Below, piece by piece: positions 49,596 through 56,394 of a DNA stretch of 64,000 nt (within the stretch, counting starts at the first letter, position 1; each line of letters opens with the position of its first letter). The stretch lies in assembly GCA_903861005.1 (NCBI GenBank), contig CAIOSP010000124.1, forward strand, positions 1-64,000, given 5' to 3'. The notes beneath the pieces are model-generated. The model was not told the origin of the DNA. It saw nothing but the letters and a program-made list of their open reading frames with translations, and did no database searches. The position numbers and the translations under genes are program-made. The DNA is from an uncultured Pseudomonadota bacterium (GTDB taxonomy: Bacteria > Myxococcota_A > UBA796 > GCA-2862545).

Positions 49596-49596
<1 letters not shown>
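49570..49596 (-). terminator. Perfect hairpin directly after ffh
   Basis: GATCGCTCAGAT (49570-49581) and its exact complement (49585-49596) flank a three-base loop. The hairpin starts at the last base of the ffh stop codon and has no U-run afterwards. It may act as a factor-dependent terminator or as mRNA 3'-end protection. The S41 gene ends more than 200 bases away on the other side; the DNA between (49358-49569) shows no gene. Confidence 0.6.
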
Positions 49597-51203
<1,607 letters not shown>

Positions 51204-51759: not shown

Positions 51760-53877
51760 TCAGCTCGCCGTCTCGAGCGCCTCCTTGCGGGACAGGCGGA
51801 TCTTGCCGGAGCGATCGACGTCGATCACGCGGACCAGCACCTCGTCGCCCTCATTGAGGACGTCGCGCACGTCGTTGACGCGCTCGTGGGCGAGGTGGCT
51901 GATGTGGATCAGGCCGTCGGTGCCGGGGAAGATCTCGACGAAGGCGCCGAAGTCCGTGATGCGCTTGACCGTGCCCAGGTACAGGGCGCCGATCTCGGCC
52001 TCCTGCATGAGCTCGCGGATCATCGCCATGGCCTTGGCCGTGGCGGCGCTGTCGGACGACGCGATGTCGACCTTGCCCGCGTCATCCACGTTGACCTTGA
52101 CGCCGCACTGCGCCTGGATCTCGCGGATGACCTTGCCACCCGGGCCGATGAGCTCGCGGATGCGGTCCGGCTTGATGTGGATGGTGGTGATGCGCGGCGC
52201 GTGCGGGGAGAGCTCCTCGCGGGGCGCCGAGATGCACTTGTCCATCTCGTCGAGGATGTGCAGGCGGCCCTGGCGAGCCTGCTCGAGCGCGGCGGCCATG
52301 ACCTCGCGGCTGACGCCGGAGATCTTGGTGTCCATCTGGAACGCGGTGATGCCGTTGCGCGAGCCGGCGACCTTGAAGTCCATGTCGCCCAGCGCGTCCT
52401 CGTCACCGAGGATGTCGCTGATGACGGCGAAGCGCTCGCCTTCCTTGATCAGGCCCATCGCGATGCCCGCGACCGGCGCCTTGAGCGGCACGCCCGCGTC
52501 GAGGAGCGAGAGCGTCGCGCCGCAGACGGTGGCCATGGACGACGAGCCGTTGGACTCGAGGACGTCCGAGGTGCAGCGGAGCACGTAGGGGAACTGGTCC
52601 TTGGTGGGGAGCACGGCCTCCAGCGCGCGATGCGCCAGGGCGCCGTGGCCGATCTCGCGGCGCTTGGGCGCGCGGAGCGGGCGGGCCTCGCCGGTGCAGT
52701 ACGGCGGGAAGTTGTAGGTCAGCATCCAGGTGCGATCGCGCTTGCCGTCCGGGTAGTCGAGCATCTGCGCGTCGGTGTCGGTGCCGAGCGTGGCGACGAC
52801 GAGGGCCTGCGTCTCACCGCGGGTGAACGTGCCCGAGCCGTGCGCGCGCGGCGCCGTGCCGACCTCGCACCAGATGGCGCGGACGTCGGACGGGCTGCGG
52901 CCGTCGAGGCGCTTGTTCGTGTCGAGGACGGCGAAGCGCATGGTCTTCTTGACCAGCTTCTCCCAGCCTTCCTTCGCGTCTTCGACGATGACGGCGGCCT
53001 CGCCCTCAGACTTGCCGGCGATCAGCTCCGCGATCACGGTGTCGCGGGCGGCCTTGATGGCGACCTTGCGCTCGTGCTTGCCGGCGATGCCCATGGCGGC
53101 CTTGAGCGGCTCGCCGCCCTTCTCGAGCACGGCGGCGACGATGGCGGCGTCCGGCGTGCGACCGGCCGACCACTCCATTCGGGGCTTGCCGGCGGCGCGA
53201 CCGAGGTCCTCGATCACGGCCACGATCTTCTTGATCTCGACCTGGGCCAGGTCCAGCGCGTCGAGGAAGTCGGCCTCAGGGGCCTCCTTGCCGCCGCCCT
53301 CGACCATGATGATCGACGACGCGGTGCCCGCGACCACCAGGGTGACGTCCGCGGCGTTCGCGATGTCCTTGGTGGGGTTGATGTGCCAGGTGGCGCCGAC
53401 CTTGACCAGACGGACGGCGGCGACGGGCTCGCTCACCGGCGCCGGGGAGATCCAGGTGGCGGCAGACGCGCCGCACAGCGCCAGGATGTCGGTCTCCGCG
53501 TCCTTGTCGTACGAGATGACCGTCGCGATGATCTGGGTCTCGTTGCGGAAGGTCTTCGGGAAGAGCGGGCGGATCGGGCGATCGATGAGGCGGGAGATGA
53601 GCGTCATGCGCTCGTTCGCCATGCCCTCGCGCTTGAGGAAGCCGCCGGGGATGGTGCCCGAGGCGCCGGCGCGGTCCTGGTAGTCGACCGTGAGCGGCAT
53701 GAAGTCGAACTTGGTGGGCTCGTGCATGGCGACGCAGGTGACGAGCACCTGGCTGTCACCAGACTTCACCATGACGGCGCCGCCGGCCTGCTTGGCGAGC
53801 TTGCCGGTCTCGAAGGTGATGGTGCGTCCACCGACTTCAACAGAGCGGGTGACGAGATTGACGTTGTGCTGGGACAT
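51760..53877 (-). CDS. pnp: Polyribonucleotide nucleotidyltransferase (PNPase)
   Basis: 705 aa. Two RNase PH domains (about 1-220 and 320-550) flank a helical linker. A KH domain with [13 protein letters not shown] and an S1 domain ending [11 protein letters not shown] follow. It degrades RNA 3' to 5' using phosphate. The gene has a long, highly structured leader between rpsO and its ATG, as in enterobacteria where PNPase autoregulates its mRNA after RNase III cleavage; whether that occurs here is inference. Confidence 0.98.
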
Positions 53878-53959
53878 GGAATCCTCGAATAGGCATGAGG
53901 GCCCAGATCGTGGGCCTGCCTGATGGATCCCGCCGAGAGCGAAGCACCGTCACGAGGTC

Positions 53960-54017
53960 TTCACCGACCTTCGAGGGCGGACTGTCCTAGGACAGTCAGA
54001 CCTCGAAGACGGGTGAA
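53960..54017 (-). promoter_or_regulatory. Long stem-loop in the pnp leader
   Basis: A 17-base arm (53960-53976) pairs with 54001-54017, with a small internal mismatch. Inside it lies a perfect 18-base palindrome (53980-53997). The structure lies 83 bases upstream of the pnp ATG on the coding strand. A double-stranded stem of this size is a candidate RNase III site or PNPase autoregulatory element. Confidence 0.7.
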
Positions 54018-54088
54018 GGGGCCGCGATCGAGCGGGAATGAACTACGGGTTTGGAGAGAGCGCGAACCGCCGGTTGCGGTCCGTGGGG

Positions 54089-54108
54089 CCCCTGACGGCG
54101 TGCCGTCA
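54089..54108 (-). promoter_or_regulatory. Hairpin in the rpsO-pnp spacer
   Basis: CCTGACGGC (54089-54097) and GCCGTCAGG (54100-54108) form a perfect nine-base-pair stem with a two-base centre. It is one of five hairpins in this spacer and has no U-run. Confidence 0.6.
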
Positions 54109-54142
54109 GGTTGGGTGGGACCGAAGTCCCCGGATGCAAGAC

Positions 54143-54165
54143 CGCCGTACACGACGTGTACGGCG
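54143..54165 (-). promoter_or_regulatory. Strong hairpin in the rpsO-pnp spacer
   Basis: CGCCGTACAC (54143-54152) and GTGTACGGCG (54156-54165) form a perfect ten-base-pair stem with a three-base loop. The position after rpsO suggests an attenuator or processing site. Confidence 0.65.
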
Positions 54166-54169
54166 AGTC

Positions 54170-54235
54170 ACCAACCAGCCACGAAGTGGACGGTGGGTCC
54201 TAACCAACCGGACACGTAGTGGACGGTTGGTCATA
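54170..54235 (-). repeat. Tandem 33-nt hairpin-forming repeats after rpsO
   Basis: 54170-54202 and 54203-54235 are directly adjacent 33-base copies identical at 28 positions. Each can fold on the coding strand into a hairpin through its outer ACCNACC/GGTNGGT arms plus an inner CAC/GTG pairing. They begin eight bases beyond the rpsO stop and may act as a double terminator or 3'-end stabiliser. Confidence 0.75.
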
Positions 54236-54242
54236 GGTGATC

Positions 54243-54503
54243 TCAGCGGCGCAGGCCCAGACGCTGGATGAGCGCACGGTAGCGCTGACCGTGATGCAGC
54301 TTCAGATACGCAAGCAGACGGCGGCGCTGGCCGACGAGCTTGAGCAGGCCGCGGCGGGAGCCGTGGTCCTTCGGGTGCGCCTTGAAGTGCGCGGTCAGCT
54401 GGTCAATGCGCGCCGAGATGAGGGCCACCTGGACCTCAGGAGAGCCGGTGTCTCCCTCGTGCATCGCGTAGTCGGTCACAATCTTCTGCTTGTCGTCGGC
54501 CAT
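54243..54503 (-). CDS. rpsO: 30S ribosomal protein S15
   Basis: 86 aa. Family motifs [28 protein letters not shown] and QRRRLLAYL are present. S15 nucleates assembly of the 30S central domain on 16S rRNA. It precedes pnp, the usual bacterial order. The region upstream, 54504-54786, holds no gene and should contain its promoter, which I could not place. Confidence 0.98.
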
Positions 54504-54700
54504 GGTCTATCCTTCGGCGTTCGCGCGTCCCCCAGGCGTCGTCGGATGGCCTTCCATCGCACGTCCGCGGGAGCGTAGGTTGTTGCCCGGGAGTCCGGAC
54601 CGCGCCCATGTCACACACAAAAGGGGCTGCGTCAAGCCTGCGGGAGCCGCCCCCGTCCGGCGGAACGCGGCATCCCAACGACAACGGCCCGACGGCGCGT

Positions 54701-54711
54701 GGTTTCAAACC
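54701..54711. promoter_or_regulatory. Short palindrome upstream of the DUF1592 operon
   Basis: GGTTTCAAACC is a perfect inverted repeat around one central base and lies about 60 bases before a TATAAT hexamer. It is a possible operator for the plus-strand operon or for divergent rpsO, with no recognised regulator. Confidence 0.3.
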
Positions 54712-54772
54712 GCGTTGTTCACGATTCACCACGGCCTCACGCATGAGGCTCGCGACCCGCCGCGGATTCACG

Positions 54773-54778
54773 TATAAT
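54773..54778 (+). promoter_or_regulatory. Consensus -10 hexamer close to a start codon
   Basis: TATAAT matches the sigma-70 -10 consensus exactly in otherwise GC-rich DNA and ends eight bases before the ATG at 54787. No good -35 hexamer is visible 16-18 bases upstream. Transcription from it would start at or next to the ATG, giving a nearly leaderless message. Confidence 0.45.
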
Positions 54779-54786
54779 CTGAGGCG

Positions 54787-56394
54787 ATGAAACACCTTCC
54801 ACTCCTCCTCGTCGTGGCGCTGGCTGGTTGCACCCCAGAGTCCGAACCCCTAGCGGTGGGTCCGGCTCCTGAGGTCACTGGTGATGCGCCTGTCCTTCGC
54901 CGCCTCACCGAGTCCCAGTACGAGCACGCGCTCCAGGACTTGTTTGGGGACGACGTCTACATCCCTGACGCGCCGGAGCCTGATCTTCGGGCCGCGGGCC
55001 TTGGTCGCATCGGCGCAAGCCAGGTGACCATCTCCCCGCGCGGCGTCGAGCGCTACGAGGCCGCGGCCTACGTGCTCGCCGAGCAGGCGCTGAACGACGT
55101 CCACAGGAGCACTTGGATGCCGTGTGAGCCGGAGGGCGTCACCGACGACGCCTGCGCCGGGCAGGCCATGGAGCTTCTCGGCCGCCGCGCCTGGCGTCGC
55201 CCGTTGGCCGACGACGAGCTCGCCACGCTGGTCGCGCTCGTGAACGACGCGTCCACCACGCTGGGCGACTTCGACGAAGGCCTGCAGTTCGGCATCGCCG
55301 CGCTGCTCCAGTCCCCGGACTTCCTGATGCGCCCGGAGCTCGGCGAGCCCGATCCGGACGCCCCCGGCAAGCTCCGCTACACCGGGTTCGAGATGGCCAG
55401 CCGCCTCTCGTTCATGCTGTGGGACTCGATCCCCGACGACGCGCTGCTCGACGCGGCGGCCGCCGGTGACCTGGACAACCTGGACGGCCTGACGACCGAG
55501 GTCGACCGCATGATCGCCGACCCTCGGGCCCACCGCGGCCTGCGCGCCTGGACCGACGATCTGCTCAACCTGGGCACGCTCGCCGACATCCAGAAGGACC
55601 CGACCGTGTTCGTGTACCTGCGTGAGGGCCTGTTCGAAGCCGCCCGCGAGGAGACGCTGGCCGGCCTCGAGGACCTCGTGTTCGCCCGTGACGGGGACCT
55701 CCGGGACCTGCTCACCACGCGCCACACCTTCCTCGACCGCAACCTAGCCACGCTCTACGGCGTCCCAGCCCCGATCCGCGATGGCCTCGGCCCCACCGAC
55801 CTGCCCGAGGACGGAGCCCGCGCCGGTCTGCTCGGCCAGGCCGCGATCCTGGCGCAGTTCGCCCACCCGCGGTCGTCGAGCGCCACCAAGCGCGGCAAGT
55901 TCGTCCGCGAGACGCTGCTCTGCCAGACCATGCCTGCCCCGCCGGCCGGCGTGAACACCGCGATCCCCGAGCCCTCGCCGGACGCCCCCACGCTGCGCGA
56001 TCGCATCGCCGTGCACCTCGAGACCCCGGTCTGCGCCGCGTGCCACAAGCTGATGGATCCGATCGGCTTGGCCCTGGAGCAGTTCGACGGCATCGGCGTG
56101 TACCGCACGACCGAGGCCGACACCCAGATCGACGCATCCGGCGACCTGGACGGCAAGAAGTACGACGGCCTCATCGGCCTCGCGCGGGCCATCCGCGCGC
56201 ACAACAGCTTCGTCCCCTGCATGGTCAACCAGGTCGCGCGCGCCGCGACCGGCATCCAGCAGACCGACGAGGACGAGGCGTCCTACGACTGGCTCGCCGA
56301 AAAGTTCGCCGAGGAGGACTTCCGCTTGCAGGCCCTGTGGCGCGATCTCGCGCTGTCCCCGATGTTCCGTCGCGTTGGTGAGGTGCAGGAATGA
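54787..56394 (+). CDS. DUF1592/DUF1588-type lipoprotein with CxxCH motif
   Basis: 535 aa. The signal ends at ALAGC (lipobox). Domains of the planctomycete/myxobacterial DUF1587-1595-1592-1588-1585 set are recognisable: LRRLTESQYEHALQDLFG at the start, RRAWRRPLADDEL, TGFEMASRLSFMLWDSIPDD, DRNLATLYGVP and CAACHKLMDPIGLALEQFD. The CAACH could bind heme c. First of three overlapping genes. The partner DUF1552 protein and these proteins always travel together, but their biochemical role is unknown to me. Confidence 0.92.
   Translation: MKHLPLLLVVALAGCTPESEPLAVGPAPEVTGDAPVLRRLTESQYEHALQDLFGDDVYIPDAPEPDLRAAGLGRIGASQVTISPRGVERYEAAAYVLAEQALNDVHRSTWMPCEPEGVTDDACAGQAMELLGRRAWRRPLADDELATLVALVNDASTTLGDFDEGLQFGIAALLQSPDFLMRPELGEPDPDAPGKLRYTGFEMASRLSFMLWDSIPDDALLDAAAAGDLDNLDGLTTEVDRMIADPRAHRGLRAWTDDLLNLGTLADIQKDPTVFVYLREGLFEAAREETLAGLEDLVFARDGDLRDLLTTRHTFLDRNLATLYGVPAPIRDGLGPTDLPEDGARAGLLGQAAILAQFAHPRSSSATKRGKFVRETLLCQTMPAPPAGVNTAIPEPSPDAPTLRDRIAVHLETPVCAACHKLMDPIGLALEQFDGIGVYRTTEADTQIDASGDLDGKKYDGLIGLARAIRAHNSFVPCMVNQVARAATGIQQTDEDEASYDWLAEKFAEEDFRLQALWRDLALSPMFRRVGEVQE

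Follow-up and report, generated by a model that had tools for sequence, protein, structure and literature searches.

The spacer between rpsO and pnp in the 64,000-nt stretch of DNA analysed here (the window) is supported as an elaborate, structured leader of pnp, the gene of polynucleotide phosphorylase (PNPase). Its long hairpin, as judged from alignments and covariance models, is an order-wide RNA element held by base-pair-preserving changes, best read as a separate RNA family of a known kind, an order-specific version of the pnp leader hairpin.

Both genes lie on the minus strand, and the mRNA runs from rpsO through the hairpins to pnp. The upstream gene of this operon, rpsO (54243–54503), encodes ribosomal protein S15 (86 amino acids; Pfam PF00312, E 4.5e-34), and pnp (51760–53877) encodes a PNPase of 705 amino acids with KH and S1 domains (Pfam RNase_PH, RNase_PH_C, PNPase, KH_1 and S1), preceded by a Shine–Dalgarno-like GAGG at 53884–53887. 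The spacer comprises 365 nt (53878–54242), and the relevant RNA is its minus strand. Also on the minus strand, a gene at 49596–51203 encodes a protein that we named by eye as SRP54/Ffh-like, with a long, glycine-rich C-terminal tail of GGGFPG repeats.

In mRNA order, and with fold z-scores against shuffled sequence, the spacer begins directly 3′ of the rpsO stop codon with two tandem 33-nt hairpin units that are 85% identical. Unit 1 (54203–54235; z −3.1), with a CAC-nnn-GUG apex, stands out when folded alone; unit 2 (54170–54202; z −1.0) is weak alone, with 28 of 200 shuffles equally good. A 10-bp hairpin (54143–54165; z −4.3) likewise has a CAC-nnn-GUG apex, and all three are absent from G001, the only same-genus genome that we compared, whose S15 is 99% identical to that of the window. 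They are followed by a UUCG tetraloop stem (54117–54130; z −1.3; one pair changed on both sides in G001, from C–G to U–A), a short perfect stem-loop with 9-nt arms (54091–54110; z −4.3; differing in G001 in the loop only) and a 7-bp stem that precedes CGCGCUCUCUCC (54064–54082; z −1.2; kept in G001 with one G–C to G–U change). The long pnp leader hairpin, a probable RNase III substrate, occupies 60 nt at 53959–54018 (z −6.5; 0 of 200 shuffles as good). Its arms are 83% complementary, it encloses an inner palindrome of 18 nt, or 9 bp (53980–53997), and its 3′ end lies 81 nt from the pnp start codon. A last hairpin (53891–53921; z −1.9) adjoins the Shine–Dalgarno-like sequence on its upstream side. 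A first-pass annotation of this DNA had listed five of these hairpins, all of which are indeed present; it overlooked three weaker ones (the UUCG stem, the 7-bp stem and the hairpin next to the Shine–Dalgarno-like sequence), and its long stem-loop needs correction from 58 to 60 nt, with a palindrome half as long as the 18 bp that it gave.

Spacers were taken from 33 loci of relatives in the order, and nearly all contain a long stem-loop whose arms are related between loci (consensus CUUCGCAGGUCUuCG ... CGcAGGUCUGUGAAG). With L008, L019, L027 and L030 left out, these loci gave a 29-row alignment, A1, in which 11 of 18 arm pairs have changes on both sides (7.2 ± 1.3 in shuffles; 3/500), the covariation score is 0.347 compared with 0.200 in shuffles (0/500), and 83% of cells are paired as against 32–49% in slid registers. 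A covariance model, R1, was built from these 29 genomes and searched against all 71 genomes of the class, and its matches were compared with the positions of S15. The order has 63 genomes, 34 of them outside R1; S15 was found in 32 of the 34, and 29 of these 32 carry an R1 match with E 0.01 or better on the S15 strand, 66–192 nt past S15. Two of the three misses, G024 and G033, are ambiguous, and the third, G037, gives a weak match (23.2 bits) at the expected position when scanned locally; local scanning also recovered G014, a model member missed by the genome-wide search (34.3 bits).

A second alignment, A3, holds 30 held-out rows, namely L008, L027, L185 (the G037 spacer, the same as L019) and 27 new sequences; L181 and L186/L030 (G024 and G033; divergent and ambiguous) and L184 (match inside a gene) were left out. 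Both-side changes occur in 19 of 25 pairs (8.7 ± 1.5 in shuffles; 0/500), covariation is 0.291 against 0.163, and 80.6% of cells are paired compared with 29.5–44.5% in slid registers, in a held-out test that leans somewhat to structure, as its rows were picked by the structure-aware R1 and aligned by MAFFT without structure. Pooling all 59 sequences gives 161 both-side cells compared with 37.0 ± 6.1 in shuffles; retrieval with R1 favours structure-fitting sequences, and many of the relatives' genomes are incomplete. Covariance modelling across relatives, which the first-pass annotation had proposed, therewith finds compensatory changes in the long hairpin throughout the order, strong also in the held-out sequences. 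The hairpin stands before pnp in 59 of 59 loci, at a variable distance from the start codon (median 104 nt) that is affected by the automatic assignment of starts, some of them wrong (clearly so in L020, at 4 nt).

A few model bacteria are known to autoregulate PNPase by means of a leader hairpin, and these hairpins do not resemble one another from lineage to lineage. The primary papers on degradation of the duplex by PNPase are reportedly Jarrige 2001 and Carzaniga 2009. According to the relevant passages of four reviews (PMC8708148, PMC10126417, PMC5872136 and PMC7866481), RNase III cuts the rpsO–pnp stem-loop of Escherichia coli, destabilising pnp mRNA, and likewise cuts the rpsO–pnp hairpin of Streptomyces coelicolor. 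Passages in PMC8708148, PMC10126417 and PMC5872136 name PNPase repression by RNase III for Borrelia, Streptococcus and Campylobacter, and one in PMC7866481 states that PNPase degrades the duplex after the cut.

The layout that we read in the E. coli sequence is similar to that of the window, with an rpsO terminator, a long imperfect stem-loop, a small hairpin by the Shine–Dalgarno sequence and then pnp, although the window has extra tandem hairpins and no U-tailed rpsO terminator. Similarity at the level of sequence or model is absent: with filters off, R1 reaches at most 2.4 bits in the spacer of E. coli. Actino-pnp RNA (RF01688), listed as a cis-regulatory RNA motif in Table 1 of PMC2864571, is comparable in being a cis-regulatory hairpin of ~60 nt in the actinobacterial rpsO–pnp spacer (63 model positions; 61–65 in the order's element), but its consensus arms are different. 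Its model (gathering score 47.7 bits) finds nothing in the window region at E values of up to 10, and it exceeds the cut-off in none of 38 order genomes and in six of eight actinobacterial control loci; conversely, R1 found nothing in actinobacterial rpsO–pnp loci. The S. coelicolor hairpin shares a G+C-rich host, and a passage of PMC10126417 gives a 2–4-fold rise of PNPase activity in the rnc mutant; its cleavage has been mapped, whereas the order's element is known from sequence, and by model it belongs with the actinobacterial leaders. Homology to the E. coli or Actino-pnp leaders was looked for with R1, with the broader model R2 and with RF01688, and was not found. No Rfam family, Actino-pnp and SraG included, matches the window's spacer, and we found no description of the order's pnp leader element in open-licence papers.

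Long stem-loops before pnp are common across bacteria. The median longest unbranched stem is 27 bp in 61 order spacers (17.8 in shuffled sequence), 29 in 64 diverse spacers (13.2) and 22 in 29 spacers of the phylum (17.2); in seven other spacers of the class it is 17, compared with 17.4 in shuffles.

We consider it probable that the spacer acts as a pnp leader whose long hairpin, once cleaved by RNase III, gives PNPase its point of entry for autoregulation. Such control, exerted through an order-specific RNA, is the parsimonious reading. Profile matches show both enzymes to be encoded in the window's genome, PNPase with its KH and S1 domains and RNase III with E 1.8e-47 (163 bits, slightly below the curated cut-off of 166.25). 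RNA polymerase would read through from rpsO, or start within the spacer, and the long hairpin would fold. Cutting by RNase III would then separate the rpsO mRNA from the pnp mRNA and leave a short duplex at the new pnp 5′ end, whose upper strand PNPase would attack from its new 3′ end, opening the 5′ end of pnp. The resulting pnp message would be short-lived or poorly translated, such that much PNPase leads to little new PNPase. On the other side of the cut, the tandem units, the 10-bp stem and the stem with 9-nt arms would cap the rpsO mRNA thus released at its 3′ end, taking the place of the U-tailed terminator, which is present in most relatives and missing from the window's genus. Against this model stands Rhodobacter sphaeroides, in which the pnp mRNA level is unaffected in an rnc mutant, as a passage of PMC7866481 reports; an RNase III hairpin is not to be assumed for every pnp. 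A Shine–Dalgarno switch was rejected as a general mechanism, as the longest complement averages 4.17 nt over 58 loci, compared with 4.18 in shuffles, and is not conserved. In the window, the 3′ arm of the long hairpin does contain CCUCGAA, which complements UUCGAGG over the pnp Shine–Dalgarno sequence (p 0.01; p 0.04 in G001).

The arms of the long hairpin keep more than their pairing. Many sequences have AGGUCU on both sides, with CUGAGCG/CGCUCA inside (CUGAGC/GCUCA in most of family f2); a C–G pair at columns 11/80 is present in 29 of 29 A1 sequences, and a G–U then U–G step at columns 9–10, with both wobbles, in 25 of 59. The stem also appears to carry regular mismatches, kept rather than random, with A3 pairs 6/115, 13/108, 15/106 and 20/101 mostly unpaired (27, 24, 21 and 20 of 29, respectively). 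This kept arm sequence exceeds what plain double-stranded RNA would need and suggests another or an additional binder; it also offers a concrete target for asking which features of a natural duplex RNase III or PNPase recognises. One tentative, somewhat unlikely proposal is twofold: that the arms (AGGUCU on both strands, the mid-stem G–U/U–G wobble and the fixed mismatches) form a recognition element evolved in this order for PNPase or for a PNPase–RNase III pair, and that in the window's genus the loss of the terminator, together with the gain of the tandem hairpins, has made cutting there the sole route to an rpsO 3′ end and a pnp 5′ end. It is unlikely, at slightly longer odds, that the hairpin is chiefly a specific binding site, at which PNPase (through KH/S1), S15 or another protein would hold the arms and repress translation or alter read-through, with RNase III unneeded. 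The sequence kept on both arms speaks for such a site; however, long duplexes before pnp are common elsewhere, and the known instances are RNase III substrates.

Comparison with G001 divides the leader. Over the part that begins with the UUCG stem and runs to the pnp start, the alignment is almost gap-free, with 10 differences in 252 positions, of which the 81 nt between the long hairpin and the start codon hold one; at four-fold degenerate sites in the compared part of pnp, 19 of 211 differ. Three of the changes are compatible with the stems, being the two-sided change in the UUCG stem and those in the loops of the short stem and the long hairpin. The 112 nt that directly follow rpsO, where the tandem units and the 10-bp stem lie, by contrast have as their counterpart in G001 47 nt of different sequence; these form one hairpin, which shares the CAC-loop-GUG apex seen in the window (z −4.6, calculated for a 49-nt stretch). 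The leader thus has two halves, conserved on the side of pnp and fast-changing on that of rpsO, and the tandem 33-nt hairpins look recent in origin because they are missing from G001, where the stretch has been replaced.

These results bear on the first-pass proposal that five hairpins form a leader much more elaborate than the enterobacterial one and a lineage-specific RNA control device. A single device made of all five hairpins is not supported; the tandem units and the 10-bp stem are local additions, replaced in G001. The elaborateness is real for the window, where the upstream part measures 224 nt compared with an order median of 102, and does not extend to the family. The long hairpin does behave like a lineage-specific control element, with covariation across the order, one copy in the genome and no occurrence found in rpsO–pnp regions outside the order. 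Direct repeats of 20/25 or better on the rpsO side occur in two of 61 order spacers, the window's and that of G010; the latter, at 662 nt the longest spacer seen (L044), has ~66-nt repeats identical at 24 of 25 positions and looks like a second, independent expansion on the rpsO side.

In 39 of the 59 order loci, the sequence 3′ of rpsO forms a hairpin with a U-rich tail (shuffled expectation 1.2). The same scan of order loci detected no such terminator in either the window or G001, a consensus scan of the window for an intrinsic terminator (a G+C-rich stem with a U-rich tail) was also negative, and in this genus hairpins without the U-rich tail stand at the terminator position. We infer that the upstream hairpins cap the rpsO mRNA once it has been cut or trimmed, and that transcription often reads through into pnp. 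In many relatives (for example, L005, L008, L029, L163 and L180), GTTCTTT recurs 3′ of the rpsO terminator stem and may be a terminator tail or a separate signal.

The frequency of terminators in relatives also speaks for the idea that the spacer hairpins mainly serve rpsO, as terminators, attenuators or 3′-end caps that shield its mRNA from exonucleases, with pnp transcribed from its own downstream promoter. The first hairpins adjoin the rpsO stop codon, and the idea fits the upstream hairpins well. The long hairpin, however, is separate from the terminator and nearer pnp, the sequence between it and the start codon is nearly invariant between the two species, with its single differing site, and consensus scans of the window show neither a terminator-like nor a sigma-70-like site. 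A strong promoter close upstream of pnp, which the first-pass annotation had raised against its own proposal, does not appear among sites of the sigma-70 type, the one type scanned, with no match in 53700–54800. For the spacer as a whole, we regard service to rpsO as improbable.

The functional molecule is the pnp mRNA strand, because G–U pairs outnumber A–C oppositions (155 of 1134 paired cells vs 63) and because the mRNA strand scores higher, the window's sequence, itself a model member, reaching 51.6 bits (E 5.3e-12) on that strand and 24.1 bits on the other. Against dinucleotide-shuffled sequence, the whole spacer folds with z −6.7 on the mRNA strand and z −7.1 on the opposite strand (0 of 100 shuffles as good on either). 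The strength of the opposite strand accords with a small RNA made from the spacer, of which the hairpin would be part, as does SraG (RF00082), an Rfam family that covers the enterobacterial rpsO–pnp spacer and is annotated on the strand opposite pnp (E. coli L155, 428–599, our positive control). With covariation and G–U use pointing to the mRNA strand, and no match of the SraG covariance model in the window, we give this idea very little weight. In E. coli, the conserved structure of SraG may itself partly reflect the pnp leader hairpin. That the structures are chance products of G+C-rich sequence, an idea to which several smaller hairpins no better than shuffles when folded alone lend some colour, is refuted for the long hairpin by covariation far above two controls, together with the mRNA-strand z-score of the whole spacer.

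The element is specific to its place. The window's genome has one R1 match at E 0.1 or better, and a mobile or dispersed repeat was rejected: neither this genome nor G001 has another convincing copy of the leader, and the other leader matches there, its own inverted arms aside, are stretches of 19–33 bases with E 0.1 or worse. Twenty-one further stretches with R1 matches were checked (second matches in order genomes and matches in the phylum outside the order, leaving out opposite-strand copies of the pnp hairpins and G035:C270). Twenty lie inside open reading frames of at least 80 codons, L202 being the one without such a frame, and none of the 21 adjoins a correctly oriented gene for S15 or PNPase. 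We rejected these as occurrences of the element elsewhere and treat them as chance matches.

Outside the order, R2 gave no leader match in eight class genomes from other families, in 39 genomes that represent 29 further families of the phylum or in E. coli; its sole match, L223 (18.6 bits), lies inside pnp. The negatives of a 377-genome scan are weak because it was limited to 13 scored candidates per genome and failed to recover known members of the order, and the local scan is the better test. Among 80 rpsO loci from named genomes, L049 alone is significant with R1 (E 9.6e-6), and L049 is the G032 contig position.

Defined by a covariance model that spans 59 genomes from an order with little study behind it, the hairpin is a third kind beside the enterobacterial and actinobacterial leaders, with a strict position and a single copy, and could become an Rfam family. 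It supports the idea of a PNPase control that recurs with lineage-specific RNAs. Three spacers of the class outside the order (L189, L190 and L191) share a different motif, a stem around CCCCCGGAACGGGG, which is possibly another lineage-specific pnp leader.
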